From an uncultured Eubacterium sp. (GTDB lineage Bacteria > Bacillota > Clostridia > Lachnospirales > Lachnospiraceae): DNA of 42,591 nt. The translations under genes and the position numbers were made by a program. The notes below the pieces were generated by a model, which saw nothing but the letters and a program-made list of their open reading frames with translations, was not told where the DNA came from and did no database searches. Each line of letters begins with the position of its first letter. Position 1 is the first letter of the stretch. Where the stretch lies: positions 1-42,591 of the forward strand of contig URYE01000015.1 of the NCBI GenBank assembly GCA_900551945.1. Direction: 5' to 3'. Shown here piece after piece: positions 5,142-20,396 of the stretch.

Positions 5142-5795
5142 TTATAATATTTTATTAATAACACCACAATCCATCTCATAAACTGTATCACACAATATTT
5201 CTATATCTTCCGCACTATGATTTGCCATAATAATAGTTTTACCACTTGATACAAGACTTTTAAATAAAGTTCTCATTTCACCAACACCATTTTTATCCAA
5301 ACCATTCATCGGCTCATCAAGCAATAAAATATCTGGTTCTTCCATCAGTGCTTGTGCAAGACCTAATCTTTGTTTCATACCTAATGAGTATTTTCCAACA
5401 TGTTTTTTACTTTCAGGGTCTAATCCAACCATTTCAATAGTTTTTTTTATTTTATCTTTTCCTATTTTTTTATTAATCCCTGCAAGAAATCTCAAATTAT
5501 TATATGCACTATAATTACTTAAAAACCCAGGTGTTTCTATAATTGCCCCAATATTTTCTAATTGTGCACTATTATTCTTAACTTTTTCACCATTTATTAA
5601 TATTTCACCTGATGATGGTGTAACAAAACCACATATACACTTTATTAACATTGTCTTACCTGAACCATTTCTTCCTATTAATCCATGTATTTTACCTTTC
5701 TCAAATGATACTGTAACATCATTAAGCACTATATTTGCACCATATTTTTTTGTAACATTTTTTACTTCAATTATATATTCTTTATCGTTATTCAT
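5142..5795 (-). CDS. ABC transporter ATP-binding protein (unit 1)
   Basis: The 217-aa product is a single ABC ATPase. Walker A is GRNGSGKT (about residues 41-48), the signature is YSLGMKQRLGLAQAL, Walker B is ILLLDEP, and the switch histidine is in MANHSAED. The YSLGMKQRLG form is typical of the bacitracin/lantibiotic-resistance and bacteriocin-immunity branch of ABC-2 exporters. It is the last gene of a five-gene minus-strand unit and overlaps the preceding permease gene by 8 bp, so it surely energises the two permeases upstream. Its paralogue is at 14363-15034. The transported substrate is unknown. Confidence 0.92.
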   Translation of the reverse strand: MNNDKEYIIEVKNVTKKYGANIVLNDVTVSFEKGKIHGLIGRNGSGKTMLIKCICGFVTPSSGEILINGEKVKNNSAQLENIGAIIETPGFLSNYSAYNNLRFLAGINKKIGKDKIKKTIEMVGLDPESKKHVGKYSLGMKQRLGLAQALMEEPDILLLDEPMNGLDKNGVGEMRTLFKSLVSSGKTIIMANHSAEDIEILCDTVYEMDCGVINKIL

Positions 5796-6639
5796 TGTAT
5801 ACTACCACCTCTTGTCTGTTACCTGCAATTATAGCTATAACACTAAATATTGTAATTATAATAATATATGAAAATAATACATATGTTATTGTAGGACATT
5901 GTGTCCTACCACCAACATCTATACATCCAATGTAACTCCATGTTAATGGTGAAAACTTATATAAATATGGTTTACCATCAACAATAGCATTTAGCAATAC
6001 AAAAAAACCTGCGACAATAATACCTAAACCTTTTGTCCTTGTTACAATATTTATTACATAAATTAACATTCCTACAAATACAAAACTTAGCCACATTAAT
6101 ATAAACGAAAAAAACATAGCTTGCATTGGTGTAAAATATCGTATTACTGAACCTGATATTCCTACCGTATTGTATCTTATATTAAGTGATGTCATTATAC
6201 CTGAAGTCCCTGCACTTCCCAATACATCGCCCCAAGTAATCCCCCATTGCATATATCTTATATTAAATATGATAGTAAAAAAAAGATGTAATAATGTATA
6301 TAGAAACGAACATATAATAATATATAATATTTGTCCTACACTCCATATACTTCTTTTTGTCCTAAGCATAATATAAGTTTGATTAGTATCTACAAATGGA
6401 GCATCACAAAAAATAAATATAACTGGTACAATAAATACAATTCTCATATATCTAAATGCAAACAAAAATGGAAAAATCCAAGGATTTATTTTTTGCCCCA
6501 TATTATTACATAATATGCTAAGGTCTTTAGTATAAGAATATACAAGAAGTATTGTCATGGCTATGCACATCTTTATTCTTCTATTTCCACTCCATTTACG
6601 AATATTTTGCATACATATTCTAATGGCTTTCATTTCCAT
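5788..6639 (-). CDS. ABC-2 type permease (unit 1)
   Basis: The 283-aa product is a hydrophobic protein with about six membrane segments. A short cytoplasmic N-terminus leads to a segment near residues 24-36, followed by FPFLFAFRYMRIVFIVPVIFIF. A conserved-looking DAPFVDTNQTYIMLRTKRS loop near residue 75 resembles the first cytoplasmic loop of ABC-2 exporters. I chose the ATG at 6639 (MEMKAIRIC), 4 bases after AGGAGG; the ATG at 6633 is an alternative. The start lies inside the end of the previous gene, so the two are translationally coupled. It presumably pairs with the 6620-7405 product and the ATPase. Confidence 0.8.
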   Translation of the reverse strand: MEMKAIRICMQNIRKWSGNRRIKMCIAMTILLVYSYTKDLSILCNNMGQKINPWIFPFLFAFRYMRIVFIVPVIFIFCDAPFVDTNQTYIMLRTKRSIWSVGQILYIIICSFLYTLLHLFFTIIFNIRYMQWGITWGDVLGSAGTSGIMTSLNIRYNTVGISGSVIRYFTPMQAMFFSFILMWLSFVFVGMLIYVINIVTRTKGLGIIVAGFFVLLNAIVDGKPYLYKFSPLTWSYIGCIDVGGRTQCPTITYVLFSYIIIITIFSVIAIIAGNRQEVVVYNE

Positions 6640-7405
6640 CAAGCCTCCTCTCTGCAAAATGCTTAAATACCCATAATGCAATTAAAAAATATCCCATACA
6701 TACCATGCAGGATAACAATATTACGACAGAAGCTCTCATACCTAAATAAGCATTATTTCCTTTTTGTATATCAAATAAACTAATAGATTTCGGCAAAAAA
6801 TCAAGAACATTTTCAACAAACATATTAATAAAAAAAGTTGATGTTACTGCTACAAACCTGTTAGGAACTGCTGATGATAACGCCATGCCCATTACTGCAT
6901 ATATTGCTGACACCATTGAAAATAAAAATATAAAAGAAATCGCTGCTAAAACTGGATAATTTCCATATGCAATATCATGGAATACCCTATACTCATGTAC
7001 TTGATGTACCCCCAGCCCATTTTTAACTCCACATATTACGGAATATATTGAAAGTCCTATAAATGATATCAAAAAAGAAATTATATAACTTGTAGTGAAT
7101 TTGGAAATGATATAATTTCTTCCTCCACATCTTATAATACATGAATTAAAATAATTATTACTTATATCATCACAAAAACTGGTTGCCATAGGAATTGAAG
7201 CAATTAATACTGGTATCTTATTCATATTATTAAAACCTGCTATATTACCTAGACCTTCAAGTACAGATTTCTTCAAACTATTTGTATCAAAATTATAGCT
7301 CATATACACGCATACCAAAATATATGAAATGATACATATATATATTTTATATGAGCTGAAAACACGCATTAGCTCCTGTCTATATGCTCCAAATAACTTT
7401 TTCAT
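6620..7405 (-). CDS. ABC-2 type permease (unit 1)
   Basis: The 261-aa product is an integral membrane protein with about six segments: near residues 19-38 (IYICIISYILVCVYMSY), then around 105-125, 150-175, 183-200 and 225-250. It has the ABC-2 arrangement of a long N-terminal extracytoplasmic loop and a DDISNNYFNSCIIRCGGR loop like the DxxxxxxxxxxRxG region of related exporters. An AAGGAG box lies 5 bases before the ATG. Its 3' end overlaps the next permease gene. Two dissimilar permeases plus one ATPase is the layout of lantibiotic self-immunity exporters (LanFEG type), but no substrate can be deduced. Confidence 0.8.
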   Translation of the reverse strand: MKKLFGAYRQELMRVFSSYKIYICIISYILVCVYMSYNFDTNSLKKSVLEGLGNIAGFNNMNKIPVLIASIPMATSFCDDISNNYFNSCIIRCGGRNYIISKFTTSYIISFLISFIGLSIYSVICGVKNGLGVHQVHEYRVFHDIAYGNYPVLAAISFIFLFSMVSAIYAVMGMALSSAVPNRFVAVTSTFFINMFVENVLDFLPKSISLFDIQKGNNAYLGMRASVVILLSCMVCMGYFLIALWVFKHFAERRLDGNESH

Positions 7406-7418
7406 ACAAACTCCTTAT

Positions 7419-8579
7419 CTACTCAAAACCAATATTCCCTGTTCTATATGTATCTTTATTTTGTGCATCAATAATTATCATATTTCTTTCACAATCTTTA
7501 CTACTTATTCCATCTTTTTCTGAATATAAACTTCTCGTCACAGTACAACTCCAAAATGGACGTATAGTAACTTGTTTCTGTGCATCCTTACTTCCCTTTA
7601 TCCCCATAGGCACATATATAAGCTTTATATCCGTTATAGTCTGTTCGTCTAATTGATTATTGTACATTAAAAATGCCGAAAGTTGTTTTACTATATCTTC
7701 AATATCTACAATCTGTAAATTATCATTAACAATTTCTTTTTCATCAAACAACATATACGCATCAAATTGCTCTATTCCATTTCTGCCAAATGCTACAGTA
7801 ACTTTTGTATCAACCGAATATTTAGAGTTATCATTAATACTATATTTCATCATCTCCAAACCATATAGCTCAACATCAAATTCCATATAATATAATTCAT
7901 CTTCATATCCCCATGAAATCTCATTTAATATTTCCCCACTCTTAGTCTTATTATATCTTAAGATTTCTTCATTTCTCATCATGACTTTTGTCATACTGTC
8001 TTTATCATATGTATAAACAATTGGTTCATTTGAAGAAAGATTTATATTCAGTCTATTACATAAATCTCTTACCTCTTGCACTGCTTGTTGCTTAGGAAAA
8101 TCGTCCAATTCCTCTTTTGGAAAAACTTCTTCTTTGCTCTTTTTACCACTTATTATTTCCTGATTATAATATTGATAATTACGTTCTAATGATTTAGGAG
8201 TATAAAAGCTGATACATCCTGTTCCTATTGACAACTTACTCTCATCATCATAAGTATAACCTCTCCTTTCTGGATTATTATCACTATATCCTTCCATATT
8301 TCTATTAATAGAAAATAAATCTACCACATCTTTCATTTCCTGTTCTGACCAATTTCTATATTCTGCTTTTAATTCTTTCAATGCAGTAGCTTTGTAATCC
8401 TCCACATCAATATCTACAGAAACTGAAGAATTAATGATTGTTTGTATATGCTTTGTATCATTATCTTCTTTAACTTCTACATTTTTCTCATCACTACCAG
8501 ATATAGACCCATCTGGATATAATGAACAGCCAGCCGTTGTTAAACACAATATAAGTATTAATAATATTTTTTTCTTCAT
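7419..8579 (-). CDS. Lipoprotein of unknown function (unit 1)
   Basis: The 386-aa product has a lipoprotein signal peptide MKKKILLILILCLTTAGC with lipobox TTAGC (cleavage before C18). A low-complexity acidic linker (residues 25-45) precedes a large extracytoplasmic domain that I do not recognise. It is rich in Tyr, Asp and Glu and contains a GTGCISFYTPKSL stretch near residue 120. It would be anchored outside the membrane next to the two ABC permeases encoded just downstream (13-bp gap). Possible roles are substrate capture, partner recognition or immunity. Unit 2 has a shorter lipoprotein in the same position (18240-19049), although the two sequences are not obviously homologous. Confidence 0.75.
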   Translation of the reverse strand: MKKKILLILILCLTTAGCSLYPDGSISGSDEKNVEVKEDNDTKHIQTIINSSVSVDIDVEDYKATALKELKAEYRNWSEQEMKDVVDLFSINRNMEGYSDNNPERRGYTYDDESKLSIGTGCISFYTPKSLERNYQYYNQEIISGKKSKEEVFPKEELDDFPKQQAVQEVRDLCNRLNINLSSNEPIVYTYDKDSMTKVMMRNEEILRYNKTKSGEILNEISWGYEDELYYMEFDVELYGLEMMKYSINDNSKYSVDTKVTVAFGRNGIEQFDAYMLFDEKEIVNDNLQIVDIEDIVKQLSAFLMYNNQLDEQTITDIKLIYVPMGIKGSKDAQKQVTIRPFWSCTVTRSLYSEKDGISSKDCERNMIIIDAQNKDTYRTGNIGFE

Positions 8580-8599
8580 AGATACCTCTCCATTAAAAA

Positions 8600-8646
8600 A
8601 GCTGTTGCAGTCAGCATTTTATAAACAAAAGCCTCATACAACAGCT
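8600..8646 (-). terminator. Intra-operon terminator after the small secreted protein gene
   Basis: Arms AGCTGTTG (8600-8607) and CAACAGCT (8639-8646) are followed on the minus strand by TTTTTT. It lies between the secreted protein gene and the lipoprotein gene. Partial read-through would give far more secreted protein than transporter, the usual stoichiometry of an export or immunity locus. Confidence 0.65.
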
Positions 8647-8677
8647 ATAGTTTTTCCTATATTTGTTAAAACTACTA

Positions 8678-9082
8678 TTATGGTGCCCAATCACCACTAA
8701 CTAATACATAATATCTAAATGTTTCCCCTTTTAATCTATACATACTACCATTATAAGCTGGTCTTACCGTATAATAAAGATAATAAGTTCCTGTATTAGC
8801 AGTAGCCTGTACAGACTCAGAATATATTAAATTATCTTCATATTGTTGTCCCACAATTGTGAACTCTACATCATCCGAATTTCCAATATTACTATTCGTA
8901 TATGTAACTCTCGCATAATTATCATTATCTGTTTTTAGAACATTACTTGAAAATTGCACGCTGTCTGCATCATCTGCAATCTCTAATCGAAAATTAAATG
9001 TTCCTGATGCTGCCGCTACTGGTACTACAAATAACATTGATACAAATACTGTTAATAACACTGTTTTTAAAAATTTTTTCAT
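8678..9082 (-). CDS. Small secreted protein (unit 1)
   Basis: The 134-aa product has a Sec signal peptide (MKKFLKTVLLTVFVSMLFVV, then PVAAAS, cleavage near residue 24). The mature part is about 110 residues, rich in Asn, Tyr, Ser and Thr, has no Cys and looks like a beta-rich domain. It ends in VSGDWAP; the unit 2 secreted protein ends in SGYWSPDSI, so both share a C-terminal SG-x-W-x-P motif. I recall similar W-terminated tails in small secreted proteins coded beside ABC transporters (DUF2712-like or lactococcin-972-type loci), but this is not established here. The start at 9082 has AAAGGAG 7 bases upstream; the ATG at 9088 is too close to that box. Confidence 0.75.
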   Translation of the reverse strand: MKKFLKTVLLTVFVSMLFVVPVAAASGTFNFRLEIADDADSVQFSSNVLKTDNDNYARVTYTNSNIGNSDDVEFTIVGQQYEDNLIYSESVQATANTGTYYLYYTVRPAYNGSMYRLKGETFRYYVLVSGDWAP

Positions 9083-9225
9083 ACTCATACTCCTTTCTGC
9101 TTAAAAGCAAATTCCCTAGTTACATTTTCAGAATATTCACCTCCATTATTTATTTTTTTCTGACTACCCTTTTTCTTTTTTTATAATATCATATAATTCT
9201 TGACTAATCTACAAAATTTCACAAC

Positions 9226-9252
9226 TAACCTTAAAATATCCTATTTAACCTT
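9226..9252 (-). promoter_or_regulatory. Direct repeat upstream of the unit 1 promoter
   Basis: On the minus strand AAGGTTA occurs twice (9252-9246 and 9232-9226), 20 bp start to start, inside a weaker WWAAGGTTAR repeat. TTGTAG-17-TGATAT a little downstream is a possible promoter for the secreted protein gene at 9082. Tandem 9-bp sites about two helical turns apart are typical of LytTR or OmpR-type regulators. The sequence differs from the repeat ahead of unit 2. The rest of 9083-9393 is AT-rich with nothing else recognised. Confidence 0.35.
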
Positions 9253-9393
9253 TTTCGTTGCTATAGCTATATTTTATAAATTATTAAAATGCAAAATATC
9301 TTATTTACTTTATTTAATAATCCCTTTACATATCTGAATCCACCTATTAAAATACTAATATAAACATTATTAACAAAATATGGAGATTATAAT

Positions 9394-9840
9394 ATGAGAT
9401 TTGTTATTCAACGTGTTAATCACGCAGATGTAAAAATAGACAATGAAACAGTAGGCGCTATTGATAAAGGGCTACTAATACTATTCGGAGCAGGGCAAGA
9501 CGATACAGAAGAAATGCTTCAAAAGTTCGTAGACAAGATAATAAAATTAAGAATATTTTCCGATGAAAATGGAAAAACTAACCTTTCCTTAAATGATGTA
9601 AATGGGGAACTCTTAATTGTAAGTCAGTTCACTCTATACGCAGACTGTCGCAAAGGCAACCGCCCAAGCTTCACCTCTGCCTGCGCCCCAGACACAGCCA
9701 ACCAACTCTACGAAAAATTTGTAAGTTTATGCAAACAACAATGCCACAAAGTAGAAACAGGCAGATTTGGTGCAGATATGAAAGTAACCCTTGAAAACGA
9801 TGGACCATTCACCATTGTATTAGATAGTAGGGATTTCTAA
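9394..9840 (+). CDS. dtd: D-aminoacyl-tRNA deacylase
   Basis: The 148-aa product matches DTD over its full usual length. It starts [16 protein letters not shown] and has the catalytic-pocket motif [17 protein letters not shown] (about residues 77-93) and a [19 protein letters not shown] tail corresponding to the Gly-Pro chiral-proofreading motif. The enzyme hydrolyses D-amino acids, and glycine from tRNA-Ala, to free mischarged tRNA in the cytoplasm. TGGAG lies about 10 bases before the ATG. The small gene at 9882 follows on the same strand after 41 bp. Confidence 0.95.
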
Positions 9841-9881
9841 AAAACACCCCCAACAAACTTATAAAAGGATAGGAGAAGAAA

Positions 9882-10154
9882 ATGTTTAGACTCTGGTGCA
9901 AACTTTTTGATGACACGAACCACCTTATAAAAGACACAGTAATTGAAAATAGTGACTATAACCTAAATCGCACAAAGAAAATATTTGACGCAATAAGAAC
10001 TGCCTGTTATGAATTTGACCTCGGAGAACCAATTTGGCTCGACTCAAATATAAGCGAGTTTCAAAGGCACTCCAAAGTCAGATTTTATCAAGATAACTTT
10101 ATAGAGCAAATAGACTTCTCATATATGGAAATTCAAGTAATAGAAGAAGATTAA
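9882..10154 (+). CDS. Conserved hypothetical protein, 90 aa
   Basis: The 90-aa soluble product (MFRLWCKLFDDTNHLIKD at the start) has mixed alpha/beta character, no signal peptide and no membrane segment; residues 28-48 are probably a helix and the acidic end strands are FIEQIDFSYMEIQVIEED. AGGAGAAG precedes the ATG. It probably shares a transcript with dtd. I recall short proteins of this kind in clostridia but cannot name a function. Its stop codon is directly adjacent to the stop codon of the convergent gene at 10155, with no spacer. Confidence 0.75.
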   Translation: MFRLWCKLFDDTNHLIKDTVIENSDYNLNRTKKIFDAIRTACYEFDLGEPIWLDSNISEFQRHSKVRFYQDNFIEQIDFSYMEIQVIEED

Positions 10155-11117
10155 CTATATAACTACATTTCTTGCTTCACCATTAATAAAGCTCTTAAGA
10201 TTATTATAAATTTCATCAAGAAGCCTTACTCTCGCTTCATAAGTAGCCCAAGCATTGTGAGGTGTAATTACAAGTTTATTACTATCCTTGATAGTAAGTA
10301 AAGGATTGTCAGCTGACATAGGCTCTTTAGTAAGCACGTCAAGCCCTGCACCTGCAATTTCACCCTCATTAATAGCTTTTGCAAGGTCAGCTTCATTTAC
10401 AATAGGACCTCGTCCCATATTGATAAGGTATGCTGTATTTTTCATTTTCTTGAAATTCTCATAATTCATAAGATTTTCTGTATATTTATTAAGTGGTGCA
10501 TGGATTGAAATAATGTCCGAATTTTTCAATAAATCATCAAGTTCAACCTTTTCATACTCTGTATCGTAAGTGTTACCACTTGCTGAATAATAAACAACCT
10601 TACAACCAAATGCCTTTGCAACATCGGCAACTCGTCTTCCGATATTACCTAGTCCCACTATGCCCCAAGTTTTTCCTGCAAGCTCATTAAATACGTTGCC
10701 AAAGTTTGTAAATATCGTGCTGTTAGAATAATCACCAGATTTTACATAGTCGTCATAATATCTCATTTTTTCATAAAGATAGAAAAGATGTGCAAATGTA
10801 TGTTGTACAACAGACATAGTTGAATAGCCTGCTACATTTGCAACTCTAATATTTAATGCCTTTGCACACTCTATATCAATATTGTTATAACCTGTTGCCG
10901 CCTCTAATATAATCTTAAGATTAGAAGCTGTGTACATTTCTTCCTTACCCATAACAATCTTATTAACAATAACTGCGTCAGGGTTGACATTTTTTAATCT
11001 TTCAAGCACCTGCTGTTTAGTGCTTTCAGCATATACAATCACTTCACCAAGTTCATTAAACTTGCTAATATCAATATCTTCTCCAAATGTCGCTCCATCT
11101 AAAATAAGTATCTTCAT
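10155..11117 (-). CDS. D-2-hydroxyacid dehydrogenase (hydroxypyruvate/glycerate type)
   Basis: The 320-aa product has the D-isomer 2-hydroxyacid dehydrogenase fold. The Rossmann motif GLGNIG is at residues 155-160, the signature INMGRGPIVNEADL carries the catalytic Arg near residue 236, and ITPHNAW provides the catalytic His, with the Glu in GLDVLTKEP. Such enzymes interconvert 2-oxoacids and D-2-hydroxyacids with NAD(P)H; hydroxypyruvate to glycerate is a good candidate because a glycerate kinase locus lies at 30104, but lactate or other substrates remain possible. GGAG is 9 bases before the ATG. It is monocistronic and converges with the 90-aa gene. Confidence 0.88.
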   Translation of the reverse strand: MKILILDGATFGEDIDISKFNELGEVIVYAESTKQQVLERLKNVNPDAVIVNKIVMGKEEMYTASNLKIILEAATGYNNIDIECAKALNIRVANVAGYSTMSVVQHTFAHLFYLYEKMRYYDDYVKSGDYSNSTIFTNFGNVFNELAGKTWGIVGLGNIGRRVADVAKAFGCKVVYYSASGNTYDTEYEKVELDDLLKNSDIISIHAPLNKYTENLMNYENFKKMKNTAYLINMGRGPIVNEADLAKAINEGEIAGAGLDVLTKEPMSADNPLLTIKDSNKLVITPHNAWATYEARVRLLDEIYNNLKSFINGEARNVVI

Positions 11118-11285
11118 TTAAAACCACTCCTTTTAAATTTATTAAAATGAATACTCAATCCGCTTTACTAATGGCTTATAATAGTATTAACTATCATGTT
11201 CTATCAGAAGTTACTCACACTTTTTACAAGCCTTACTTATTGCTTTAAAAATACAAACGTAGTACTTATTTAACAATATCAAAAA

Positions 11286-11325
11286 GGACATAAAAGCACT
11301 AAAAAAATACAATGCCTTTATGCCC
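11286..11325 (-). terminator. Terminator downstream of pgi
   Basis: On the minus strand GGGCATAAAGGCA (11325-11313) pairs with TGCTTTTATGTCC (11298-11286), followed by TTTTT. The rest of the 222-bp gap (11118-11339) contains the GGAG box of the downstream dehydrogenase gene and no recognised promoter. Confidence 0.8.
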
Positions 11326-11339
11326 TAAATTAATTTAAA

Positions 11340-12686
11340 TTATAATCTCTTTCTTAATGCTTCGCCCTCAGCTTCAAATCCTGGCTTGCCAAGAAGTGCA
11401 AACATATTGTGCTTGTAGCTTTCAACACCTGGCTGGTTAAATGGATTAACTCCAAGTATATAACCTGAAAGACCACATGCAAATTCAAAGAAATAGAATA
11501 ATTCGCCTAAGTAGAACTCATTCTGTTCTGGAATTTTAACCATAAGGTTAGGTGTATTACCATCTGTATGAGCTAAAATTGTACCATTCATAGCACACTT
11601 ATTAACGAAATCAACTGTCTTTCCTGCAAGATAGTTAAGTCCATCAAGGTCTTCGTCCTCAGCTTCGATAGTAATTTCCTCTCTAGCCTTTTCAACATTG
11701 AGAACAGTTTCAAACATAATTCTTGAACCGTCCTGAATGAACTGTCCCATTGAATGAAGGTCTGTTGTTAAATCAACACTAGCTGGGAAAAGTCCCTTGT
11801 TATCCTTACCTTCTGACTCGCCCATAAGCTGTTTCCACCATTCAAGTGTATAGTGAAGACTAGGTTCATAATCACAAAGGATTTCGATAGCCTTACCCTT
11901 TCTTAACATAATGTTACGAAGTGCTGCATACTGCATTGAGTCGTTGTTGTCAAAATCATTTTCAATACAACGCTTTCTTGCGCTTGCTGCACCCTCCATA
12001 AGCTTATCTATATCAGCTCCACTTGCTGCGATTGCAAGTAAACCTACTGCTGTAAGAACAGAGAAACGACCACCTACATCATCAGGAACTACAAATTCTT
12101 CGTATCCTTCTGCATCAGCAAGGTTCTTTAATGCTCCCTTTGCCTTATCTGTTGTAGCATATATTCTCTTAGCTGCTTCTTCTTTTCCGTACTTCTTCTC
12201 TAAGAGCTTCTTAAATACTCTAAATGCAATAGCAGGTTCTGTTGTTGTACCTGACTTAGAGATAATATTTACAGAGAAATCTCTATCTCCTATTACATCT
12301 ATAAGATTTGATAAATATGTAGAGCTAATGCTGTTACCAACAAAATAGATTTCTGGTGCTTTACGAACTTCCTTAGAAACTGAGTTAAAGAAGTTGTGTC
12401 CTAAAAATTCAATAGCTGCTCTAGCTCCAAGATATGAACCACCAATACCAATAACTACAAGAACTTCTGAGTCAGACTGTATCTTCTTAGCTGCCTTTTT
12501 AATTCTTTCAAATTCATCTTTATCGTAATCTACTGGAAGGTCAATCCAACCAAGATAATCATTACCAGCTCCCTTCTTTGAAAGAAGAAGTTCCTTTGCG
12601 CTTTCTGTAATATCTTTCATAGACTCTACTTCATGTGCATGAACGAACCCCTCTGTCTTTGAATAATCAAAACTAACTTGTCCCAT
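11340..12686 (-). CDS. pgi: Glucose-6-phosphate isomerase
   Basis: The 448-aa product is full length for the bacterial short form (about 450 aa). Visible hallmarks are [19 protein letters not shown] in the first SIS domain, the [14 protein letters not shown] phosphate-binding loop, the catalytic region [20 protein letters not shown] with [13 protein letters not shown], and the C-terminal [21 protein letters not shown] containing the catalytic Lys. It interconverts glucose 6-phosphate and fructose 6-phosphate in the cytoplasm, upstream of the PPi-phosphofructokinase encoded nearby. AAGGAG lies 11 bases before the ATG. Its 424-bp upstream region contains a copy of the structured repeat in the same orientation. 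Confidence 0.97.
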
Positions 12687-12736
12687 AACTACAAAATCTC
12701 CTTTTTAATAATCATTACAAGCCGTTAAAATTCTAA

Positions 12737-12900
12737 CAAAAACGCACTTATCCTTATACCCTGTACAAACGCAAAAAAATTGCTACTTGTACAAGATAAA
12801 TTTTAAACTATGAGAAACTCCCTTTGTGAGCTTCTTTTAGTTTAGCGACAGTCACCAATTCTTATGCAATCACAAACTTTGGCTCATTGTCTGCGCAAAT
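12737..12900 (-). repeat. Structured repeat, copy 2 (pgi leader region)
   Basis: The minus strand from 12900 to 12805 aligns with plus-strand 303-400: TTTGCGCAGACAATGAGCC, then AAAGTTTGTG, GACTGTCGC and TTTCTCATAGTT. The first hairpin keeps its pairing through a double change (CTAA/TTAG to CCAA/TTGG). The second hairpin pairs GAAGCTC with GAGTTTC. Downstream, TTTGTACAGGGTATAAGG (12770-12753) is shared with copy 3. It lies 51-214 bp upstream of pgi and could be transcribed in its leader. The other part of the gap (12901-13030) is AT-rich without recognised features. Confidence 0.5.
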
Positions 12901-13030
12901 TAAAATTTCACAACAACTCGTAATATTTACTTTAATTATAGCCACTTTATCCTAATTTTTCAAGCAATAGTTCCATAAAATAAAAAATTTCACGTTAAAA
13001 TAAGACATATATTTTCTAAAAACAATAAAA

Positions 13031-13074
13031 CACCATTTAAAGTACAACTATCTACGTTTATACTTTAAATGGTG
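13031..13074 (-). terminator. Terminator downstream of mtnN
   Basis: Perfect 14-bp arms CACCATTTAAAGTA (13031-13044) and TACTTTAAATGGTG (13061-13074) are followed on the minus strand by TTTTATTG. The arm resembles the GCACCATTAAAAG box of the hairpin repeat at 14248 and 29844, possibly by chance. Confidence 0.8.
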
Positions 13075-13110
13075 CATAAATTTCAGAACATTATCTATTA
13101 ATATTAAAAA

Positions 13111-13803
13111 TTATATTCTCTCAACTAATTCCTTAATCAAACTTACAGAATTTTTTATTGCCTGCTTTTCAAATGTTGGATAGTCCATTGTTGCACTATC
13201 ATCGGCTTTGTCTGATATCGCTCTTAAGATTACAAATGGAATACCATTAAGATATGAAGCCTGTGCTATAGCAGCACCTTCCATTTCAGTACAAAATCCG
13301 TCAAAATTATTGGAAATCTTTTGCTTAACTTCCTTATCAGATATAAACTGGTCGCCACTTACAACTCTGCCAACGTGTACGCCAATCTCTGGAACTGCCT
13401 TTGCACAGCTTTCCTTTGCAAGCTCAATAAGACGCTCATCTGCCTTAAATGACAAAGTATCCATTCTAGGAATTTGACCCAAAGCATATCCAAAACCAGT
13501 TGCGTCCATATCGTGATGAAGCACGTCACTTGAAATAACAACATCTGCAATATCAATCTCAGCCTTAAGAGAGCCTGCAATACCAGTGTTAATCACATAG
13601 TCAACCTTAAAATCATCAGCGAGTATCTGTGTACACACCGCAGCATTAACCTTACCAATGCCACTTCTTACAACAACAACATCTTTTCCATTAAGCTTTC
13701 CCTGCTTAAAGTTCATCTGAGCCTTAGTTTCTTCCTTTTCAATTGTCATAACTTCCACAATCTGAGCAACTTCCTCATCCATTGCACCAATAATACCTAT
13801 CAT
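13111..13803 (-). CDS. mtnN: 5'-methylthioadenosine/S-adenosylhomocysteine nucleosidase
   Basis: The 230-aa product has full family length. It begins MIGIIGAMDEEVAQI, whose Glu near position 11 is the family's catalytic residue. It has GIGKVNAAVCTQIL, the NTGIAGSL phosphate loop, the FCTEMEGAAIAQAS ribose-binding motif and AISDKAD with the catalytic Asp near residue 203. It cleaves adenine from MTA and SAH (and 5'-deoxyadenosine), recycling by-products of methylation and radical SAM chemistry. GGAG is 8 bases before the ATG. Monocistronic, with its own terminator; no SAM-responsive riboswitch was recognised in the leader. Confidence 0.95.
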   Translation of the reverse strand: MIGIIGAMDEEVAQIVEVMTIEKEETKAQMNFKQGKLNGKDVVVVRSGIGKVNAAVCTQILADDFKVDYVINTGIAGSLKAEIDIADVVISSDVLHHDMDATGFGYALGQIPRMDTLSFKADERLIELAKESCAKAVPEIGVHVGRVVSGDQFISDKEVKQKISNNFDGFCTEMEGAAIAQASYLNGIPFVILRAISDKADDSATMDYPTFEKQAIKNSVSLIKELVERI

Positions 13804-14225
13804 ACAAAAATCTCCATTTCTATTAATACTAACTTTTCAATGCCTAAATTGCTTTTTTATCATCAAGCCAATTAATACATTTCTACTCTAACACACAATC
13901 CATAGAATAGCCTAAAAATATCAACTTAACTCCTACAATTCAGACAAAATAAATAAGCTTTCTATCATATTATAAGAAATGCCACAATCTAGTCAAGCCA
14001 TAGTTTCCAACCATTCTACAAAAATACGCAAAAATTCCCGCTTCTATAAAATATCCAACAAACTTTAATAATACATTATACAAGCCTTATAATATGCTTA
14101 ATAGATATAATAAAGAAAAGAAACCGAATATTAACTGTTTTATGAACTTCCAAGTCTATTTATAATCCCCCATATTAAGTCAAAATATTAAATTATATCT
14201 TTTGCCCACGACACAACCTACCGAC
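13804..14225. other. 422-bp AT-rich intergenic region without recognised gene
   Basis: Between mtnN and the hairpin element I see no ORF with a ribosome binding site, no hairpin with T-tract and no repeat match strong enough to call. It must contain the mtnN promoter, but no -35/-10 pair stands out. Confidence 0.4.
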
Positions 14226-14382
14226 AAGATAGCAGGAGTATATAAGTAATAAATGCACCATTAAAAGAACAGCCAGATATATTTGTATGACAGTAGCGAA
14301 CATACTTGTTCGATAATGGCATACAAATAAATTGGGCTGTACTTTTACTGGTGTGTGTTTACTTATATACTCCTGCTATCTT
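14226..14382. repeat. 157-bp hairpin element overlapping the 3' end of an ABC ATPase gene
   Basis: Perfect 24-bp arms, 14226-14249 and 14359-14382 (outer part AAGATAGCAGGAGTATATAA), continue inward with imperfect pairing: AACAGCC/GGGCTGT, ATTTGTATG/CATACAAAT and an inner CGAACA-TACT-TGTTCG hairpin (14297-14312). The right arm contains the last codons and stop of the ATPase gene (D-S-R-S-I-stop). The inner region 14248-14323 shares 22 identical bases (AATAAATGCACC onward) and ATAATGGCATA with 29844-29910. It may act as terminator for the unit but lacks a strong T-tract. Confidence 0.7.
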
Positions 14383-15034
14383 CACTATTCACTATTTTCC
14401 CATCAGATATTTCATAAATCACATCAGACAAAAACTCCAACTCCTCTTTATCGTGACACGCAAGTATAATTATTGCCCCTCTCTCCTTTGCCTTTCTCAA
14501 AATCTCTCTAACCTGCATGGCACCCGATTCATCAAGTGCATTTATCGGCTCATCAAGGATAATAATGTCAGGATACTCCATAACTGCTGCTGCAATGCCT
14601 AACCTTTGCTTCATACCAAGCGAATATTTTCTATAAGTTCTCTTGTCATCTGGTTCAAGCCCCACTTCTTCAAGCACTTCCCTTATTCTATCATCACCAA
14701 TTCGCTTTTGAATAGAAGCCAATACTTGAAGATTTTTAAAACCTGTATAATTACCTATAAATGCTGGATTTTCAATAAGCACACCAATGCTTCGTGGAAA
14801 TGATATTTGCTTTCCAAGTACTTCACCATTAATAGTAATAGTTCCACTATTTGCCACGATAAGCCCACTAATAGCTCTCATAAGCATAGTTTTTCCAGAA
14901 CCATTTTTCCCCTTAAGACCGTACACCTTGCCACCCGTAAATTCAAGATTAATGTCAACAAGAACTGGCGAACCCTTAATCGTCTTATTAAGTCCTTGTA
15001 TTACAATTTTATTTTCTGTCCTATTCTCTTCCAT
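14363..15034 (-). CDS. ABC transporter ATP-binding protein (unit 2)
   Basis: The 223-aa product is an ABC ATPase with Walker A GKNGSGKT, signature YSLGMKQRLGIAAAV, Walker B IIILDEP and switch His in LACHDKEE. It is clearly paralogous to the unit 1 ATPase and belongs to the same bacitracin/lantibiotic-resistance-like branch. The start is uncertain: GGAG precedes GTG 15040 by 5 bases and ATG 15034 (MEENRTENK) by 11; I give the ATG. It lies 171-183 bp after the last permease gene, a gap without terminator. Odd: the C-terminal residues DSRSI and the stop come from the arm of a hairpin element, so the original 3' end may have been replaced. Confidence 0.9.
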   Translation of the reverse strand: MEENRTENKIVIQGLNKTIKGSPVLVDINLEFTGGKVYGLKGKNGSGKTMLMRAISGLIVANSGTITINGEVLGKQISFPRSIGVLIENPAFIGNYTGFKNLQVLASIQKRIGDDRIREVLEEVGLEPDDKRTYRKYSLGMKQRLGIAAAVMEYPDIIILDEPINALDESGAMQVREILRKAKERGAIIILACHDKEELEFLSDVIYEISDGKIVNSEDSRSI

Positions 15035-15217
15035 ATCCACACTCACTCCATTTATATTGTTAAATATTTATCATAATATCTTTTACACTATCTAAACAAA
15101 ACAACACTTTATATATACAATATCATTCCCTTTAAAAACCACATAACTATAAACTTTGTTTTAAAACCTCACGTCATTACTATATTTATGTAATTCTTTA
15201 AAATTGCAAAAATTTTA

Positions 15218-16072
15218 CTATAACACATCGTACTTTCTAAAATATACATATCCCACTATCACACTTACAACAATTATCACAACATCGACCATTACTGACG
15301 TTGCAAGAAAAACTCCATTTTCACACACCTGAGTGTATCTGTACGTCATTAAAAAATTGCCCGGCAAAAACCACACTGTATAGTAAGCTGAAAATATAGC
15401 TACTGTAATAATACTTATGTAGCTTATAATAGCTGATGTTAAAAACGCCATTGTCATCTGAAAAAGTGACAATGCAATCCCTGTAAGCACTGGAAGTACA
15501 AGCACCATAACGCCGATAACATTTGCATTGTATATACTTTCTTTATTACAACCTAATACAACACTTATAACATCAGCATTAACATTTCCTATGCTAGAAA
15601 ACATTGAGCTACTTACAACACATCTTACTGCCACACCCGCATATATTGACAAAAAGAACACCAACACTGTTGATATATTCCATATACATTTGCTAAACCA
15701 CCAGTCTGACTTTCTTCTACTTCTTACAAGAACGTTCTTACCAAAGCCATGCAAGTCTTTTAATGGGTAATTGCCTATAAATAAAGCCAACACTATTACA
15801 ATAATAAGATAGTTCGTTGGAATTTCAAATGGATTATTCTTTGCAGGTATATATTCTCTCATTCCCCTAAACACATATACAATACAATCTATAAACGATA
15901 CTTGTAAACTTTGTTTACCATACATCATATAAGTTTGAATTTGCCTTACAAATGTATCTGCATAATCTATGCCTATAATAAACGGCAATATAAACTTATA
16001 TCCCCCTGATAAAAGACCATATTTTAATTCAGCTAATATTTGGACAAAAAAATTACTCTTTGCTTTTTTCAT
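15218..16072 (-). CDS. ABC-2 type permease (unit 2)
   Basis: The 284-aa product has a cytoplasmic start MKKAKSNFFVQILAELKYG, then a long hydrophobic domain with about six membrane segments (near residues 30-45, 92-108, 135-155, 180-205, 210-235 and 255-277). A KDLHGFGKNVLVRSRRKSDWW loop (split around residues 104-124) is the typical ABC-2 cytoplasmic loop. AAGGA precedes the ATG. It is separated by 4 bp from the preceding permease gene. With the 16077 product it probably forms the membrane part of one exporter with the ATPase encoded next. Confidence 0.78.
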   Translation of the reverse strand: MKKAKSNFFVQILAELKYGLLSGGYKFILPFIIGIDYADTFVRQIQTYMMYGKQSLQVSFIDCIVYVFRGMREYIPAKNNPFEIPTNYLIIVIVLALFIGNYPLKDLHGFGKNVLVRSRRKSDWWFSKCIWNISTVLVFFLSIYAGVAVRCVVSSSMFSSIGNVNADVISVVLGCNKESIYNANVIGVMVLVLPVLTGIALSLFQMTMAFLTSAIISYISIITVAIFSAYYTVWFLPGNFLMTYRYTQVCENGVFLATSVMVDVVIIVVSVIVGYVYFRKYDVL

Positions 16073-16076
16073 TTTA

Positions 16077-16841
16077 TCATTCCTTTTTTAAGAAATCTTT
16101 TCTTCTTATTAGAATAAAACCTAATACAATAAGCCCTATTGCAAACAACGCAGGATATACACAAGTACTAAAATAATCAAGTCCATTATAATACAAATAT
16201 GTATCATAAAAACTACCTATTATTTTTGCAAAAAATATTACTATTGGAGCAGGGCTTATAGTTAATTCAACCATCATAAGTGCAACCATTGTCATATAGC
16301 CTACTACTGGTGTATTGAATACCCACCATGTAATTACAATAAATAATCCGATACAAAAAAGCATAAGAAACGTAACTACAAAACTAACAACCATCATTAC
16401 TCTAAAATCAACAAACGTATCTACTTGTATTCTAAGTGTATAATAAGCATTACTATCAAGCGAATTCCAATTACATTGAACCTTGTCTGTAAGAAGTAAT
16501 CCCCATATCGTAGTCCACACAAAAATATATACTCCTGCCAATAATGATGTAACAAAAATATCCTTTATAAGATTAACCCATATCCTTTTTAGATTTCCCC
16601 TTCTTATAATTTGATTTATCGAAAAATCATGTTTTAACGCATTAATATAAACAATTCCCATCACTGGAAATATCAACCATACTGCTGTAAGTTGTTCATA
16701 AATGTAAGCATCAGATAGACAATATACAACTTGTTTATTATCAAGCGCAACATACAATCTTAAATAAATATATATAGGAATTACCACCATAAAAAATATA
16801 ACACTTCCTATAACAGATATATCACGAAGCCTATCTTTCAT
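16077..16841 (-). CDS. ABC-2 type permease-like membrane protein (unit 2)
   Basis: The 254-aa product has about six membrane segments (SVIFFMVVIPIYIYL near residue 14, then around 55, 90, 145, 175 and 225). A SINQIIRRGNLKRIWVNLIKD loop around residues 70-90 looks like an ABC-2 cytoplasmic loop. The start at 16841 (MKDRLRDIS) is chosen because AGGGTG lies 6 bases upstream; a TTG at 16859 in the same frame would overlap the previous gene and has no box. It starts 5 bp after the stop of the anchored protein gene. Confidence 0.75.
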   Translation of the reverse strand: MKDRLRDISVIGSVIFFMVVIPIYIYLRLYVALDNKQVVYCLSDAYIYEQLTAVWLIFPVMGIVYINALKHDFSINQIIRRGNLKRIWVNLIKDIFVTSLLAGVYIFVWTTIWGLLLTDKVQCNWNSLDSNAYYTLRIQVDTFVDFRVMMVVSFVVTFLMLFCIGLFIVITWWVFNTPVVGYMTMVALMMVELTISPAPIVIFFAKIIGSFYDTYLYYNGLDYFSTCVYPALFAIGLIVLGFILIRRKDFLKKE

Positions 16842-16846
16842 AAATT

Positions 16847-17401
16847 TCACCCTACCCAATCAAATTTAACCATTTTCTTTTGAGGATATTGCTGATAAAT
16901 AAGATAATTCTCATTATTTTCAAGACTATAAAGCTCTGATAATATAACCTGACTACCTCCATATGCTATTGTATACAAAGTTATAGTTTGAACTTCATTA
17001 GACTTAAATAGCGTAGTCCCCTCACCTGTCACTTTTCTTACTCCATTAGAAAAACATGACGGCCACATCCACGCATTACTAAATTCTGGTTTAAACTTTA
17101 TATCTTCTTGTGATATATTTTCATATGAAAGAGTATATGTAATAATTCTTTTTATATCACTATCTCTAAAATCATCTTGATATAATACATTCGGATATGC
17201 TTCATTAAAATCATCCAAAGTCCACACCCTGCTTTCAACTGGTGTAATTACCAAGTTATTAATATTAAGCGGATTGTCCTTTGAGTAATACTCTACTACT
17301 GCCTTTGGAAATCTTGTATTTATATCATGTATAAAATACCCACTAACACCTGCTATAATAATAACTATTGCAACTATAATTACTTTTATTTTAGAACGCA
17401 T
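16847..17401 (-). CDS. Membrane-anchored extracytoplasmic accessory protein (unit 2)
   Basis: The 184-aa product has one N-terminal membrane anchor (IKVIIVAIVIIIAGVSGYFI, residues 5-24) and an outside domain of about 155 residues with no recognised family. It contains NLVITPVESRVWTLDDFNE and ITYTLSYENIS, reminiscent of Ig-like domains of DUF4352/DUF5027 type in other clostridial surface proteins (weak). The gene overlaps the upstream permease gene by 11 bp and is followed within 5 bp by another permease gene, so it is a structural part of the transporter unit. Unit 1 has no counterpart. GGGGTG lies 7 bases before the ATG. Confidence 0.7.
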   Translation of the reverse strand: MRSKIKVIIVAIVIIIAGVSGYFIHDINTRFPKAVVEYYSKDNPLNINNLVITPVESRVWTLDDFNEAYPNVLYQDDFRDSDIKRIITYTLSYENISQEDIKFKPEFSNAWMWPSCFSNGVRKVTGEGTTLFKSNEVQTITLYTIAYGGSQVILSELYSLENNENYLIYQQYPQKKMVKFDWVG

Positions 17402-18224
17402 CTTTTTTCACCCCATTTCTAAAATATATAACACCTGATATAACTGCAACAATTAAAAGCTCTAATATAATAGCCATAGGTTGTGAACCCCTAGGCTGTG
17501 TCATATCAAGTAATGTAATTGGATTAATCTTACCTAACCAACTTATAACTTTTACATATGGTGAAATAACACTAAAGCCATAATAGACAATGAATGGTAC
17601 AAGTGTAAGTAAAAATACATTTTCAATAGCATACACCGCTGCTAATGCTACTGTAGAAAATACACCTGCATATAAAAAATAAATTACAATAAATATCATA
17701 ATGTATATATATGGGTGTGTATAATACACCTTATCCAACATTCTACTTCCAGATAATGCAAAAGTACCATTCCCTACGGGTACAAGTGATGGCAATACAC
17801 AAGCCGATAACAACAAATTGACAAGCCAAGGAATAATTACAACAATACCCCCTGATATAAATGTGACTGTGTATTTTGCAACAAGATAATTCTTTTTTGT
17901 TGTTCTTGTATAAATATTTTTAATGTAACCACTCTTAATATCCATATAGTAAGTTATGCCATGTGCAAGTGTTGCAAGCACAGGTAATATCGTTAAAAAT
18001 GTTGTTGCATAAGCATCGGCAAAGCTTCCGCCAAGCCAATAATTAAATACTGACTTTGGATAACATTGAAATGTTCCTTGAAAAAATTGCAATGGGTCTT
18101 TTGCTTCTGGAATAACTTCTACTATAAATTGTGCAATGCTTATTATTAAGCCTATAATTAAGGCTACCCACAGTGTTTTTGAACGTATTGCCCGTTCATA
18201 TTCTATTTTTATCTGCTCTTTCAT
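17391..18224 (-). CDS. ABC-2 type permease (unit 2)
   Basis: The 277-aa product has the clearest ABC-2 profile of the unit. The N-terminal MKEQIKIEYERAIRSKTLW is cytoplasmic, followed by a segment at residues 18-36, a large outside loop, then segments near 72-90, 117-138, 168-190, 196-215 and 252-268. The MDIKSGYIKNIYTRTTKKNY loop (near residue 95) is the classical conserved cytoplasmic loop. AGGGGA precedes the ATG. It follows the lipoprotein gene by 15 bp. With three permease-like proteins and one ATPase, the exact subunit composition is unclear. Confidence 0.82.
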   Translation of the reverse strand: MKEQIKIEYERAIRSKTLWVALIIGLIISIAQFIVEVIPEAKDPLQFFQGTFQCYPKSVFNYWLGGSFADAYATTFLTILPVLATLAHGITYYMDIKSGYIKNIYTRTTKKNYLVAKYTVTFISGGIVVIIPWLVNLLLSACVLPSLVPVGNGTFALSGSRMLDKVYYTHPYIYIMIFIVIYFLYAGVFSTVALAAVYAIENVFLLTLVPFIVYYGFSVISPYVKVISWLGKINPITLLDMTQPRGSQPMAIILELLIVAVISGVIYFRNGVKKDAF

Positions 18225-18239
18225 AACTATTCCCCTATT

Positions 18240-19049
18240 TTAATTGTCAAACTCTATCTTTATCATTGGACAACCTGATGGTATTTTAGATACAGAACTA
18301 CTATATCCACTTCTAAATTTATGTGTTAAAAATCTTACACTCATATAAAGGTTATCTATTACTGTTACTTCTTCTAAATAACTGAATACAATTATAGTTT
18401 CTAATTCCTCATCCTTTTCAAAAGTATAATAATTATTGTGCTGATGGATTGGCTTGGTTATATCTAATATTTCTTTATATTTATCAAAGCCACATGACTC
18501 TATTATTGCATACTTAAAGTTTTTTTCGTCTGTACTATTATAAAAATATGGATTCATACAATATTCGATATCAGAAGCATCATCATTATGATTTGTCATT
18601 TTTACTTTTAAGAAAATCCACTTTGAATTTCTTTTTAAACACTTTCCATTATCATCGTATGCTGGTTCATCATCACCATAATTTAGTTCCCTTATCATAA
18701 AATCTTTAAAGCTACTATCACTCTCAAGTTCTTCTAACAATGTAAGGTCATCACTTTTCCAAGCATTTTCGACTGTAACATCAAAACCATCATACGTTAC
18801 TTTTTCATTCATACTTGCAATCGGTATTTCTGTACCATCTTGTGCTTTATCTGCTGAATTTTTAATAGTTTCTCCATCAAAAGATGTCTTTAATTCTTTT
18901 GGCTCATCAGGATTTGTCTTATTACCAGTTTTATTATAATTTTCTACTCTTTGCTCTGCAGCAGATAAATTAGAAGAAGATAGCGAACAAGCAACCGATG
19001 ATATTGCTATTATTAATGTGATACTTAATAATAATAACTTTCTAAACAT
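18240..19049 (-). CDS. Lipoprotein of unknown function (unit 2)
   Basis: The 269-aa product has a lipoprotein signal with lipobox SVAC (cleavage before C21), a Ser/Asn/Lys-rich linker to about residue 75, and an extracytoplasmic domain. The domain begins with EKVTYDGFDVTVENAWKSDD, which looks like the Ig-like fold of DUF5027/DUF4352 lipoproteins (from memory, not searched). It lies between the secreted protein gene (66-bp gap) and the first permease gene, as in unit 1. GGGA is 7 bases before the ATG. Likely acts at the outer face of the membrane with the transporter; role unknown. Confidence 0.72.
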   Translation of the reverse strand: MFRKLLLLSITLIIAISSVACSLSSSNLSAAEQRVENYNKTGNKTNPDEPKELKTSFDGETIKNSADKAQDGTEIPIASMNEKVTYDGFDVTVENAWKSDDLTLLEELESDSSFKDFMIRELNYGDDEPAYDDNGKCLKRNSKWIFLKVKMTNHNDDASDIEYCMNPYFYNSTDEKNFKYAIIESCGFDKYKEILDITKPIHQHNNYYTFEKDEELETIIVFSYLEEVTVIDNLYMSVRFLTHKFRSGYSSSVSKIPSGCPMIKIEFDN

Positions 19050-19115
19050 TATACATTCCCTTTCAATAATAATTTATATTTTAAATAACTAAGATGTATA
19101 TATCAAATTACCATT

Positions 19116-19559
19116 TTAAATACTATCTGGACTCCAATAACCAGAAAATACTCCTATTCCATCAGTTCCACCATCACAAAGTCTTCCTTTAATATATTCA
19201 AATCTATAACCTCTTTCATATGTATAATTAATCATGTAATACCAATCATATTGATGAAATATATATCCATCACTTGTACAAAAATGTCTATCAGTATTAG
19301 GATCATATGCCCATACATATGCCTGATAAGCATCTACTGGTTCCATTGCCCATATACAATACATATATGCACTCGTAGTATCTTCCTTTAATCTTTGTTC
19401 CGAAGTTTCCCACCTATCTGGTCCTTCAAAATCAAACATAAAATCACTATCATGATAATTGCCCTCTGCTTTTGCAACTGTAATTCCACTCTGTACCACT
19501 ATTATACACAACAATCCTAATACTATTAAATTACCTAATTTTTTCTTAGTTCTTATCAT
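19116..19559 (-). CDS. Small secreted protein (unit 2), first gene of the operon
   Basis: The 147-aa product has a Sec signal peptide (basic start MIRTKKK, hydrophobic core, cleavage after AKA near residue 31). The mature part is about 116 aa, aromatic-rich (many Tyr and Trp), with three Cys (in YCIW, HFCTS, RLCDGG), and ends in FSGYWSPDSI. That tail echoes the VSGDWAP end of the unit 1 protein. As the first and most promoter-proximal gene, it is likely the main product of the locus. A secreted bacteriocin-like or signalling protein is possible but unproven. GGA is 7 bases before the ATG; a good promoter with tandem regulator sites lies upstream. Confidence 0.75.
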   Translation of the reverse strand: MIRTKKKLGNLIVLGLLCIIVVQSGITVAKAEGNYHDSDFMFDFEGPDRWETSEQRLKEDTTSAYMYCIWAMEPVDAYQAYVWAYDPNTDRHFCTSDGYIFHQYDWYYMINYTYERGYRFEYIKGRLCDGGTDGIGVFSGYWSPDSI

Positions 19560-19612
19560 ACTAATTTCCTTCTGTTGTAAATTATTTTTATATACACCTT
19601 AGCTATATTCGC

Positions 19613-19680
19613 ATTATATCCCCTATTTTTCTTAAATCAATAGCTTTGGCACGAGTGGTCGTTTAAACGGCACGAATGGT
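19613..19680 (-). promoter_or_regulatory. Promoter with 21-bp-spaced direct repeats, probable LytTR regulator site
   Basis: On the minus strand the repeats ACCATTCGTGCC (19680-19669) and ACCACTCGTGCC (19659-19648) match at 11 of 12 positions and lie exactly 21 bp apart. Seven bases later comes TTGATT (19640-19635), a 16-bp spacer and TATAAT (19618-19613). Two in-phase repeats just upstream of the -35 are the standard activator site of LytTR regulators such as AgrA, ComE and PlnC. A LytTR regulator gene lies at 21764-22492. The link is inferred from spacing and proximity. Confidence 0.6.
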
Positions 19681-19731
19681 AACTAAAATAACAAAACATT
19701 AAAATTATTCAATTTTGGCAGGAATATTATA

Positions 19732-19792
19732 TTTACATTTTTGTTATAATATAATAAAATATAAGTACTTAAAATGGTACTGTTTAAAGTAC
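19732..19792 (+). promoter_or_regulatory. Toxin-antitoxin promoter and operator with three GTAC sites at 12-bp spacing
   Basis: TTTACA (19732-19737), a 17-bp spacer and TAAAAT (19755-19760) form the promoter. Directly after the -10, GTAC occurs at 19765, 19777 and 19789, exactly 12 bp apart; the first is part of the palindrome AAGTACTT. YefM/YoeB operators in other bacteria contain TGTACA-core palindromes at 12-bp centre spacing, so this is probably the autoregulatory operator. Confidence 0.6.
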
Positions 19793-19808
19793 AGAAATGG
19801 GGTGTTAT

Positions 19809-20325: not shown

Positions 20326-20345
20326 TATAGAATGTCTAATATATA

Positions 20346-20392
20346 TAAGCCTTCAAACTGAATAATATATCTTACACCTGTTTGAAGGCTTA
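20346..20392. terminator. Bidirectional hairpin between the toxin and kinase genes
   Basis: Perfect 13-bp arms TAAGCCTTCAAAC (20346-20358) and GTTTGAAGGCTTA (20380-20392) separate two convergent transcripts. T-runs on either side are weak, so efficiency is uncertain. Confidence 0.6.
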
Positions 20393-20396
20393 CAAA

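Follow-up and report, generated by a model that had tools for sequence, protein, structure and literature searches.

Two secreted-protein, lipoprotein and ABC transporter units of an uncultured Eubacterium sp. as candidate bacteriocin-like operons

Why would a bacterium carry two gene units that each begin with a small secreted protein and end with the ATPase of an ATP-binding cassette (ABC) transporter? The two units, here called A and B, lie on the minus strand of a 42,591-nucleotide stretch from an uncultured Eubacterium sp. of the Lachnospiraceae (contig URYE01000015.1, assembly GCA_900551945.1), which is referred to as the window. We propose, with a probability of roughly 0.6, that both are bacteriocin-like operons in which a Sec-exported antibacterial protein is paired with immunity provided by a LanFEG-like ABC transporter and a lipoprotein, with unit B under LytTR control. 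An initial annotation had described two parallel secreted-protein, lipoprotein and ABC units, and these, with their open reading frames (ORFs), are present where it placed them (Table 1). Its statement that the gene order is the same holds in outline; unit B has two extra genes, encoding a protein of 184 amino acids (aa) and a third permease. The resemblance to bacteriocin and immunity loci that it had remarked on is now strengthened by a recurring gene order, a LanF-like ATPase, the lipoprotein, and a LytTR-type promoter element before unit B.

The ATPases of the two units, taken to be related from the outset, share 45% identity over 211 aa. For both, the best curated model was TIGR03740 (lantibiotic protection), with 194.3 bits for unit A and 172.6 bits for unit B. 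In a tree of 18 rows, drawn with a midpoint and leaving out Melissococcus (ATPase in two frames), the two window ATPases and 12 others formed a clade (support, 99/98) that excludes one LanF and three other exporters. A small secreted protein stands beside the transporter in 10 of the 12 non-window rows of this clade, in one case apparently broken, and the loci with such a partner come from Clostridia, Bacilli, and Collinsella. The unit A ATPase paired with that of Niallia (90/84) and the unit B ATPase with that of Lachnospira eligens (94/92), although neither pairing reaches the starred level. Because each ATPase is nearer to one from another organism, the units do not represent a recent duplication. 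Their first permeases (P1) are weakly similar (22%; E of 6e-7 in a single comparison), and pairwise comparison of their lipoproteins found no similarity. Units A and B appear to represent distinct lineages of a single family.

Conservation of the gene order elsewhere, to which the initial annotation had attached weight, was seen in a neighborhood survey drawn from plasmid and phage records. The census was based on the best 20 rows of a plasmid search with the unit B ATPase, of which 16 were opened (H1-H12, H15, H16, H19, and H20); H13, H14, H17, and H18, left out of the census, belong to the same genera as opened rows and have near-equal scores. A small secreted protein adjoins the ABC genes in 11 of the 16 opened rows, or 10 of 15 distinct ones when two near-identical L. 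eligens plasmids are counted once. These loci are from L. eligens (frame apparently broken), Vescimonas, Collinsella, Niallia, Carnobacterium, a Listeria record that is a chromosome although entered as a plasmid, and four Priestia loci, two of them with an annotated DUF2712 protein and two with a protein of another family of 127 to 133 aa (one divergently transcribed). No adjacent secreted protein was present in the opened rows from Sarcina, R. albus, and Melissococcus, in one Listeria exporter, or in one Lactococcus exporter; the Methanosphaera and L. salivarius LanF rows, opened from another search, also had none. Counts were taken by eye because an automated rule for recognizing secreted proteins, applied to 18 loci, recovered only 8 of 11 by-eye cases (unit B, L. 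eligens, and Vescimonas were missed) and also picked some other proteins; it found no G-x-W tail in four outgroup loci. A megaplasmid of Niallia taxi carries genes in the order of unit A, and the layout is therefore more than chance. The lipoproteins of unit A and this Niallia unit are weakly similar (21% identity; single-comparison E of 9e-6). The unit A P1 also shows weaker similarity to the P1 of two Priestia loci, R. albus, Listeria, and unit B. The unit B P1 matches the P1 of all 11 other loci compared, plus that of unit A, at an E of ≤0.01, several of these matches being weak (E up to 0.001 in a 32-protein database).

Signal peptides and lipoboxes in both units were called by eye; a crude hydropathy rule accepted the signal peptide of the unit A protein and rejected that of unit B. 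The unit A protein has close homologues at 72 to 99% identity, and profile searching adds more distant ones from Niallia, Lederbergia, and Bacillus sp. (alignment A6). One variant (P0003) occurs on 718 contigs; therefore, the system is not rare. The claim that the secreted proteins belong to no known family stands for unit A, as none of the 14 A6 members has a Pfam family and PF10916 (DUF2712) gave no match at an E of 10 in any of them or in the Niallia or Carnobacterium records. It holds less well for unit B, whose homologues P0019-P0021 (98, 69, and 64% identical), P0032, and P0033 carry a precomputed PF10916.15 label. The older PF10916.13 matched neither the unit B protein nor P0019-P0021 at an E of 10, and the later version may be broader. 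Scans of relatives placed PF10916 above cutoff in two of six records in one case and in one of six in another, below it in Collinsella (E of 9e-4) and L. eligens (0.125), with no match in Vescimonas, Carnobacterium, or Niallia. Profile searches placed neither secreted protein in a characterized family of unrelated function. Among all matches above curated Pfam and NCBIfam cutoffs, only the ABC domains of the ATPases and, with Pfam, the two-component proteins were named.

The secreted proteins were first described as differing except for a signal peptide and a C-terminal motif. The tails are as described (VSGDWAP in unit A and FSGYWSPDSI in unit B), and a G-x-W near the C terminus is kept in 8 of 10 relatives (SGEWSPDS, TGYWDEET, IGVWSPD, QGYWDEET, KGKWSPD, EGYWYS, DGIWDEET, and SGTWRSN); the tails lacking it are FAWSPDN of L. 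eligens and TGSFRTH of P. megaterium. Full-length comparison of A with B gave a probability of 96, inflated by the signal peptides. With these removed, the probability was 57, and none of 60 column shuffles reached the score. Profiles restricted to the mature proteins, for A6 and a wide set (A7), aligned with a score of 30.0, compared with ≤12.2 for 60 column shuffles. Narrower comparisons were not outstanding, the scores being reached by 1 of 60 shuffles (A6 against A8) and 15 of 60 (A8 against three canonical DUF2712 proteins, A9). Judged from sequence, the two proteins are probably distant homologues, with common descent likely but not proven.

Upstream of unit B lie genes for a GHKL kinase and a LytTR response regulator, and a direct repeat precedes its promoter-like site. 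In LytTR systems, most repeats are 12 bp apart, with a strong bias toward a position 10 bp upstream of the -35 box, and the unit B element has the commonest geometry reported in the accessible part of that work (PMC6193735). Among local Markov sequences (n = 5,000), 20 hold any comparable element and 4 the exact geometry. Three other places in the whole window satisfy a loose form of the rule, and a mismatch search found no further near-exact copy of the 12-mer. No such element precedes the regulator gene. The promoter-like site alone says little because the region contains 82 such sites (62.9 expected). In the L. eligens unit, an annotated autoinducer peptide (agrD) and AgrB accompany a LytTR regulator and a kinase; the region upstream of agrD holds only a weak AT-rich 7-of-9 pair. 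No AgrB was recognized by eye among the listed ORFs of the window.

In unit A, the spacer after the secreted-protein gene contains a terminator-like stem-loop of -23.6 kcal/mol (z of -3.0 against mononucleotide shuffles). It was missed by a stock scan because its loop is 27 bases and the scan permits only 3 to 8. The hairpin test covered 11 spacers, with the divergent loci L016 and L025 left out. Stem-loops with a z of about -3 or lower (mononucleotide shuffles) were found in 6 of the 11 (unit A and five relatives), and weaker ones in Priestia J2 (z of -1.8) and Niallia (z of -1.5). A stem of at least 7 with a T-rich tail occurs in seven spacers, those of unit A and six of nine relatives. Hairpins of this kind are usually read as raising the output of the first gene over that of downstream genes.

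Taken together, these features suggest the following scheme. The first-gene product, of ∼100 to 115 mature residues, would leave the cell via the Sec pathway, as its signal peptide indicates by eye, and may act on the envelope of competing Gram-positive cells. The ABC transporter, which is related to LanFEG yet distinct, would shield the producer together with the lipoprotein by binding the secreted protein at the membrane and expelling it. In unit B, the kinase and regulator would activate the operon through the repeat at 19680-19648, whose geometry was observed and whose binding is predicted. In unit A, the observed hairpin would favor abundant effector and less downstream protein.

By analogy, the lactococcin 972 type offers the closest working precedent, although its mature protein is shorter than those of units A and B, and the units here have separate permeases of ∼250 to 280 aa and a lipoprotein. 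No curated lactococcin 972 peptide model appeared among the Pfam and NCBIfam matches listed for the secreted proteins, and the ATPases (110.9 bits for A and 100.8 bits for B) do not reach the 254.85-bit cutoff of TIGR03608 (L_ocin_972_ABC). The units share with it a Sec signal peptide, by eye, and the lack of any matched modification enzyme. ComE, which figures in one such system, is a LytTR protein. As far as the available text of these reports goes, streptococcin B and lactococcin 972 loci (scbABC; lcn972-orf2-orf3) begin, like units A and B, with a supposedly Sec-secreted protein followed by membrane and ABC genes predicted to confer immunity, the scb promoter contains a ComE site (PMC11796350, PMC4055356), and the functions of the scb B and C products lack experimental verification (PMC11796350).

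Three further systems bear comparison. Like LanI plus LanFEG, to judge from the accessible portion of PMC5786555, units A and B combine a lipoprotein of immunity type with at least two small permeases and an ATPase nearest to this family, but their ATPases score below the family cutoff and fall outside the clade of the single LanF in the tree. No lantibiotic structural or modification gene was seen by eye among the listed ORFs (≥60 aa; ≥90 aa), a length at which short structural genes could escape. Operons of the order DUF2712-WxPxxD-DUF2705-ATPase in Priestia (L003 and L006) and Listeria (L017) agree in outline, ATPase clade, and G-x-W tail (GYWDEET and GIWDEET); they differ in having no lipoprotein and in having permeases of named families that the window permeases do not reach. 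Indeed, the permeases of the Priestia and Listeria relatives score 109.2 and 134.2 bits against PF10920 (DUF2705), whereas the third permease of unit B scores 7.4 bits (E of 3.1), below the 22.4-bit cutoff. YydIJ of the epipeptide operon is likewise an ABC transporter postulated to give autoimmunity against a secreted antimicrobial, according to the consulted part of PMC7026026, but that system makes a 17-residue modified epipeptide with its own epimerase and protease, and units A and B contain none of the three.

A resistance module would account for the same transporter in another way: like those of CprABC-type operons, the ABC complex and lipoprotein would guard against antimicrobial peptides of foreign origin, which the secreted protein would soak up as an extracellular decoy. 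Operons of that type combine a two-component system with a LanFEG-like ABC transporter and, in some, a lipoprotein, and a small secreted first gene is not described for them in the available text (PMC5786555). The two-component pair at unit B and the related ABC genes found without an adjacent secreted protein fit such a role. Here, however, the secreted gene comes first, its products fall into several families by sequence, and 7 of the 11 spacers behind it contain a hairpin. The LytTR geometry of unit B is known from bacteriocin promoters, and the L. eligens unit has a link to agr; we consider this explanation unlikely. The LytTR/GHKL pair and the agr genes of L. eligens could also point to a non-killing, pheromone-like ligand for the neighboring kinase or the ABC complex. 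The L. eligens kinase has a separate annotated autoinducer peptide, no two-component pair adjoins unit A, the protein is larger than expected of a pheromone, and signaling alone would leave the lipoprotein and exporter unexplained, all of which makes a pure signal improbable.

The structural model of the unit B protein raises a further alternative, a surface or adhesion factor whose beta-sandwich binds a carbohydrate or envelope polymer while the ABC complex moves a lipid or polymer precursor. The model is a generic all-beta sandwich of eight strands (mean pLDDT, a local confidence score, of 66; blocks after residue 30, 58 to 83), with weak matches that include carbohydrate-binding modules, PirA, endospore fiber subunits, and phage exported proteins. 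Against the PDB, it has no Foldseek match at an E of ≤1e-3, and its best Z score of 9.6 is little above the level that the tool calls common. Neither unit has a glycosyltransferase or polymer gene, and the ATPases are nearest to peptide-immunity exporters; thus, we give this explanation little credence. Finally, the initial annotation had allowed that export of the secreted protein might need the ABC complex, which would then secrete it or a processed fragment. The genes are adjacent, and PmtC, the phenol-soluble modulin exporter, is among the next-best models for the ATPases. Such export is nonetheless highly improbable because Sec-type signal peptides are present, and no peptidase domain was found with Pfam or NCBIfam. 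Self-protection is the better reading of the ABC complex.

Several observations weigh against bacteriocin-like operons as proposed here. Both ATPases fall short of the 309.75-bit cutoff of TIGR03740. No secreted protein adjoins the related ABC genes of R. albus, Sarcina, and Melissococcus, the lipoprotein is lacking in many relatives, and profile comparison did not connect the 127- to 133-aa proteins of Priestia and Planococcus with A or B. Unit A has neither an adjacent regulator nor a LytTR element. For unit B, the finer rule for the LytTR-type element was fixed only after the repeat had been noticed, and a cruder repeat test that ignores the promoter is weak (3 pairs in the window compared with 0 to 4 in 20 simulations; local frequency, 2%); no AgrD-like small ORF was seen by eye on the minus strand at 19560-22800, near its kinase. 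The hairpin is absent from three spacers (unit B, z of +0.8; Vescimonas, 0.0; Carnobacterium, -0.3), and a clear T run 3' of the stem occurs mainly in unit A and Listeria. In the accessible part of PMC7026026, the postulated immunity transporter YydIJ of B. subtilis gives at most minor protection. No mention of DUF2712 or DUF2705 was found in the literature searched, and no activity is known for any member.

Table 1. Features of units A and B and their surroundings (window coordinates; TM, transmembrane segment)
Feature	Position	Strand	Description and basis
Unit A	5142..9088	-	Secreted protein, lipoprotein, permease, permease, ATPase; ORF list
Unit A ABC ATPase	5142..5795	-	Best curated model TIGR03740; ATPase tree
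Unit A second ABC permease	5788..6681	-	Niallia permease 2 is 37% identical over 292 aa
Unit A first ABC permease (P1)	6620..7405	-	28% identity to Niallia P1
Unit A lipoprotein	7419..8579	-	386 aa; N-terminal ...TTAGC lipobox, judged by eye
Unit A spacer with terminator-like stem-loop	8580..8677	-	AGCTGTTGTA / TGCAACAGCT, then TTTTTAAT
Unit A Sec-type secreted protein	8678..9088 (alternative start 9082)	-	134-136 aa; ORF, homologues
Unit B	14363..19559	-	Secreted protein, lipoprotein, permease, single-TM 184-aa protein, two permeases, ATPase
Unit B ABC ATPase	14363..15046	-	69% identity to L. eligens plasmid ATPase; ATPase tree
Unit B third ABC permease	15218..16072	-	24-26% to permeases of L. 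eligens, Collinsella, and Vescimonas units
Unit B second ABC permease	16077..16859	-	7 TM by simple hydropathy
Unit B single-TM protein	16847..17401	-	184 aa; 1 TM; ORF
Unit B first ABC permease (P1)	17391..18224	-	Similarity to P1 of related loci
Unit B lipoprotein	18240..19049	-	269 aa; ...SVAC lipobox, judged by eye
Unit B Sec-type secreted protein, DUF2712-type	19116..19559	-	147 aa; ORF, homologues
Unit B promoter-like site	19613..19640	-	TTGATT - 16 - TATAAT, 10/12
LytTR-type direct repeat upstream of unit B	19648..19680	-	9-bp ACCATTCGT, 12 bp, ACCACTCGT; 10 bp before -35 box
GHKL sensor histidine kinase, upstream of unit B	20397..21767	-	HATPase_c_5 4.6e-23
LytTR response regulator, upstream of unit B	21764..22492	-	LytTR 4.6e-21, Response_reg 1.7e-8

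By a simple hydropathy rule, the permeases of unit A have 4 and 5 TM and those of unit B 6, 7, and 5; the real start of the second unit A permease is probably near 6609. The unit B lipoprotein was assigned no family by Pfam or NCBIfam, and the second unit B permease had no match among the permeases compared. The 184-aa protein resembles, by eye, DUF5028-annotated proteins of related operons; BLAST against its L. eligens counterpart was empty, and it had no match among the locus proteins compared. Between the two-component genes and unit B, a RelB/RelE-like gene pair (by eye) lies on the plus strand at window positions 19797-20325.

Some of the related loci have features of their own. On the L. 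eligens plasmid (L001:4758-5233, with the same genes in L012), the autoinducer gene overlaps, in another frame, an ORF ending in FAWSPDNYGGY, as if a deletion had fused agrD to the secreted-protein gene. This copy looks broken because its frame overlaps the autoinducer gene and has no signal peptide; the two records may come from the same isolate. A Carnobacterium plasmid (L013:3278-12015, L033) carries the secreted gene twice (149 of 151 residues identical), and its glycoside hydrolase, ATPase, and 172-aa genes recur as well, representing an amplified unit or an assembly duplicate. On plasmids of Priestia and Planococcus (L024:2299-2682, L016:2972-3373, and L025:3822-4205), ABC genes of this type have the secreted family of 127 to 133 aa as their neighbor, and the Planococcus ATPase is annotated in two pieces. 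The Vescimonas locus encodes another small protein whose start resembles a signal peptide (L002:6260-6643). Its gene follows those for a sigma factor and a DUF4367 protein and precedes that for the G-x-W protein, which perhaps points to a second effector or a different control. The DUF2712 unit of the Listeria chromosome (L017) is also present on L021, a contig deposited as a Listeria phage, which looks like host DNA because its neighboring genes match those of the chromosome.

At odds that we would place a little short of even, DUF2712-like proteins may form an undescribed class of bacteriocins: Sec-secreted, unmodified beta-sandwich proteins of ∼100 to 115 residues that occur across Bacillota and in Collinsella. 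Each would have its own LanFEG-like ABC transporter for immunity and, in Lachnospiraceae, would be switched on by LytTR/agr quorum sensing, and a single gut bacterium could carry several with different targets. A system of this kind would be overlooked by searches for modification enzymes or short peptides. If the proposal is true, a role open to testing could be assigned to DUF2712 and its relatives, that of weapons which bacteria of gut and soil secrete and against which they carry matching immunity genes.

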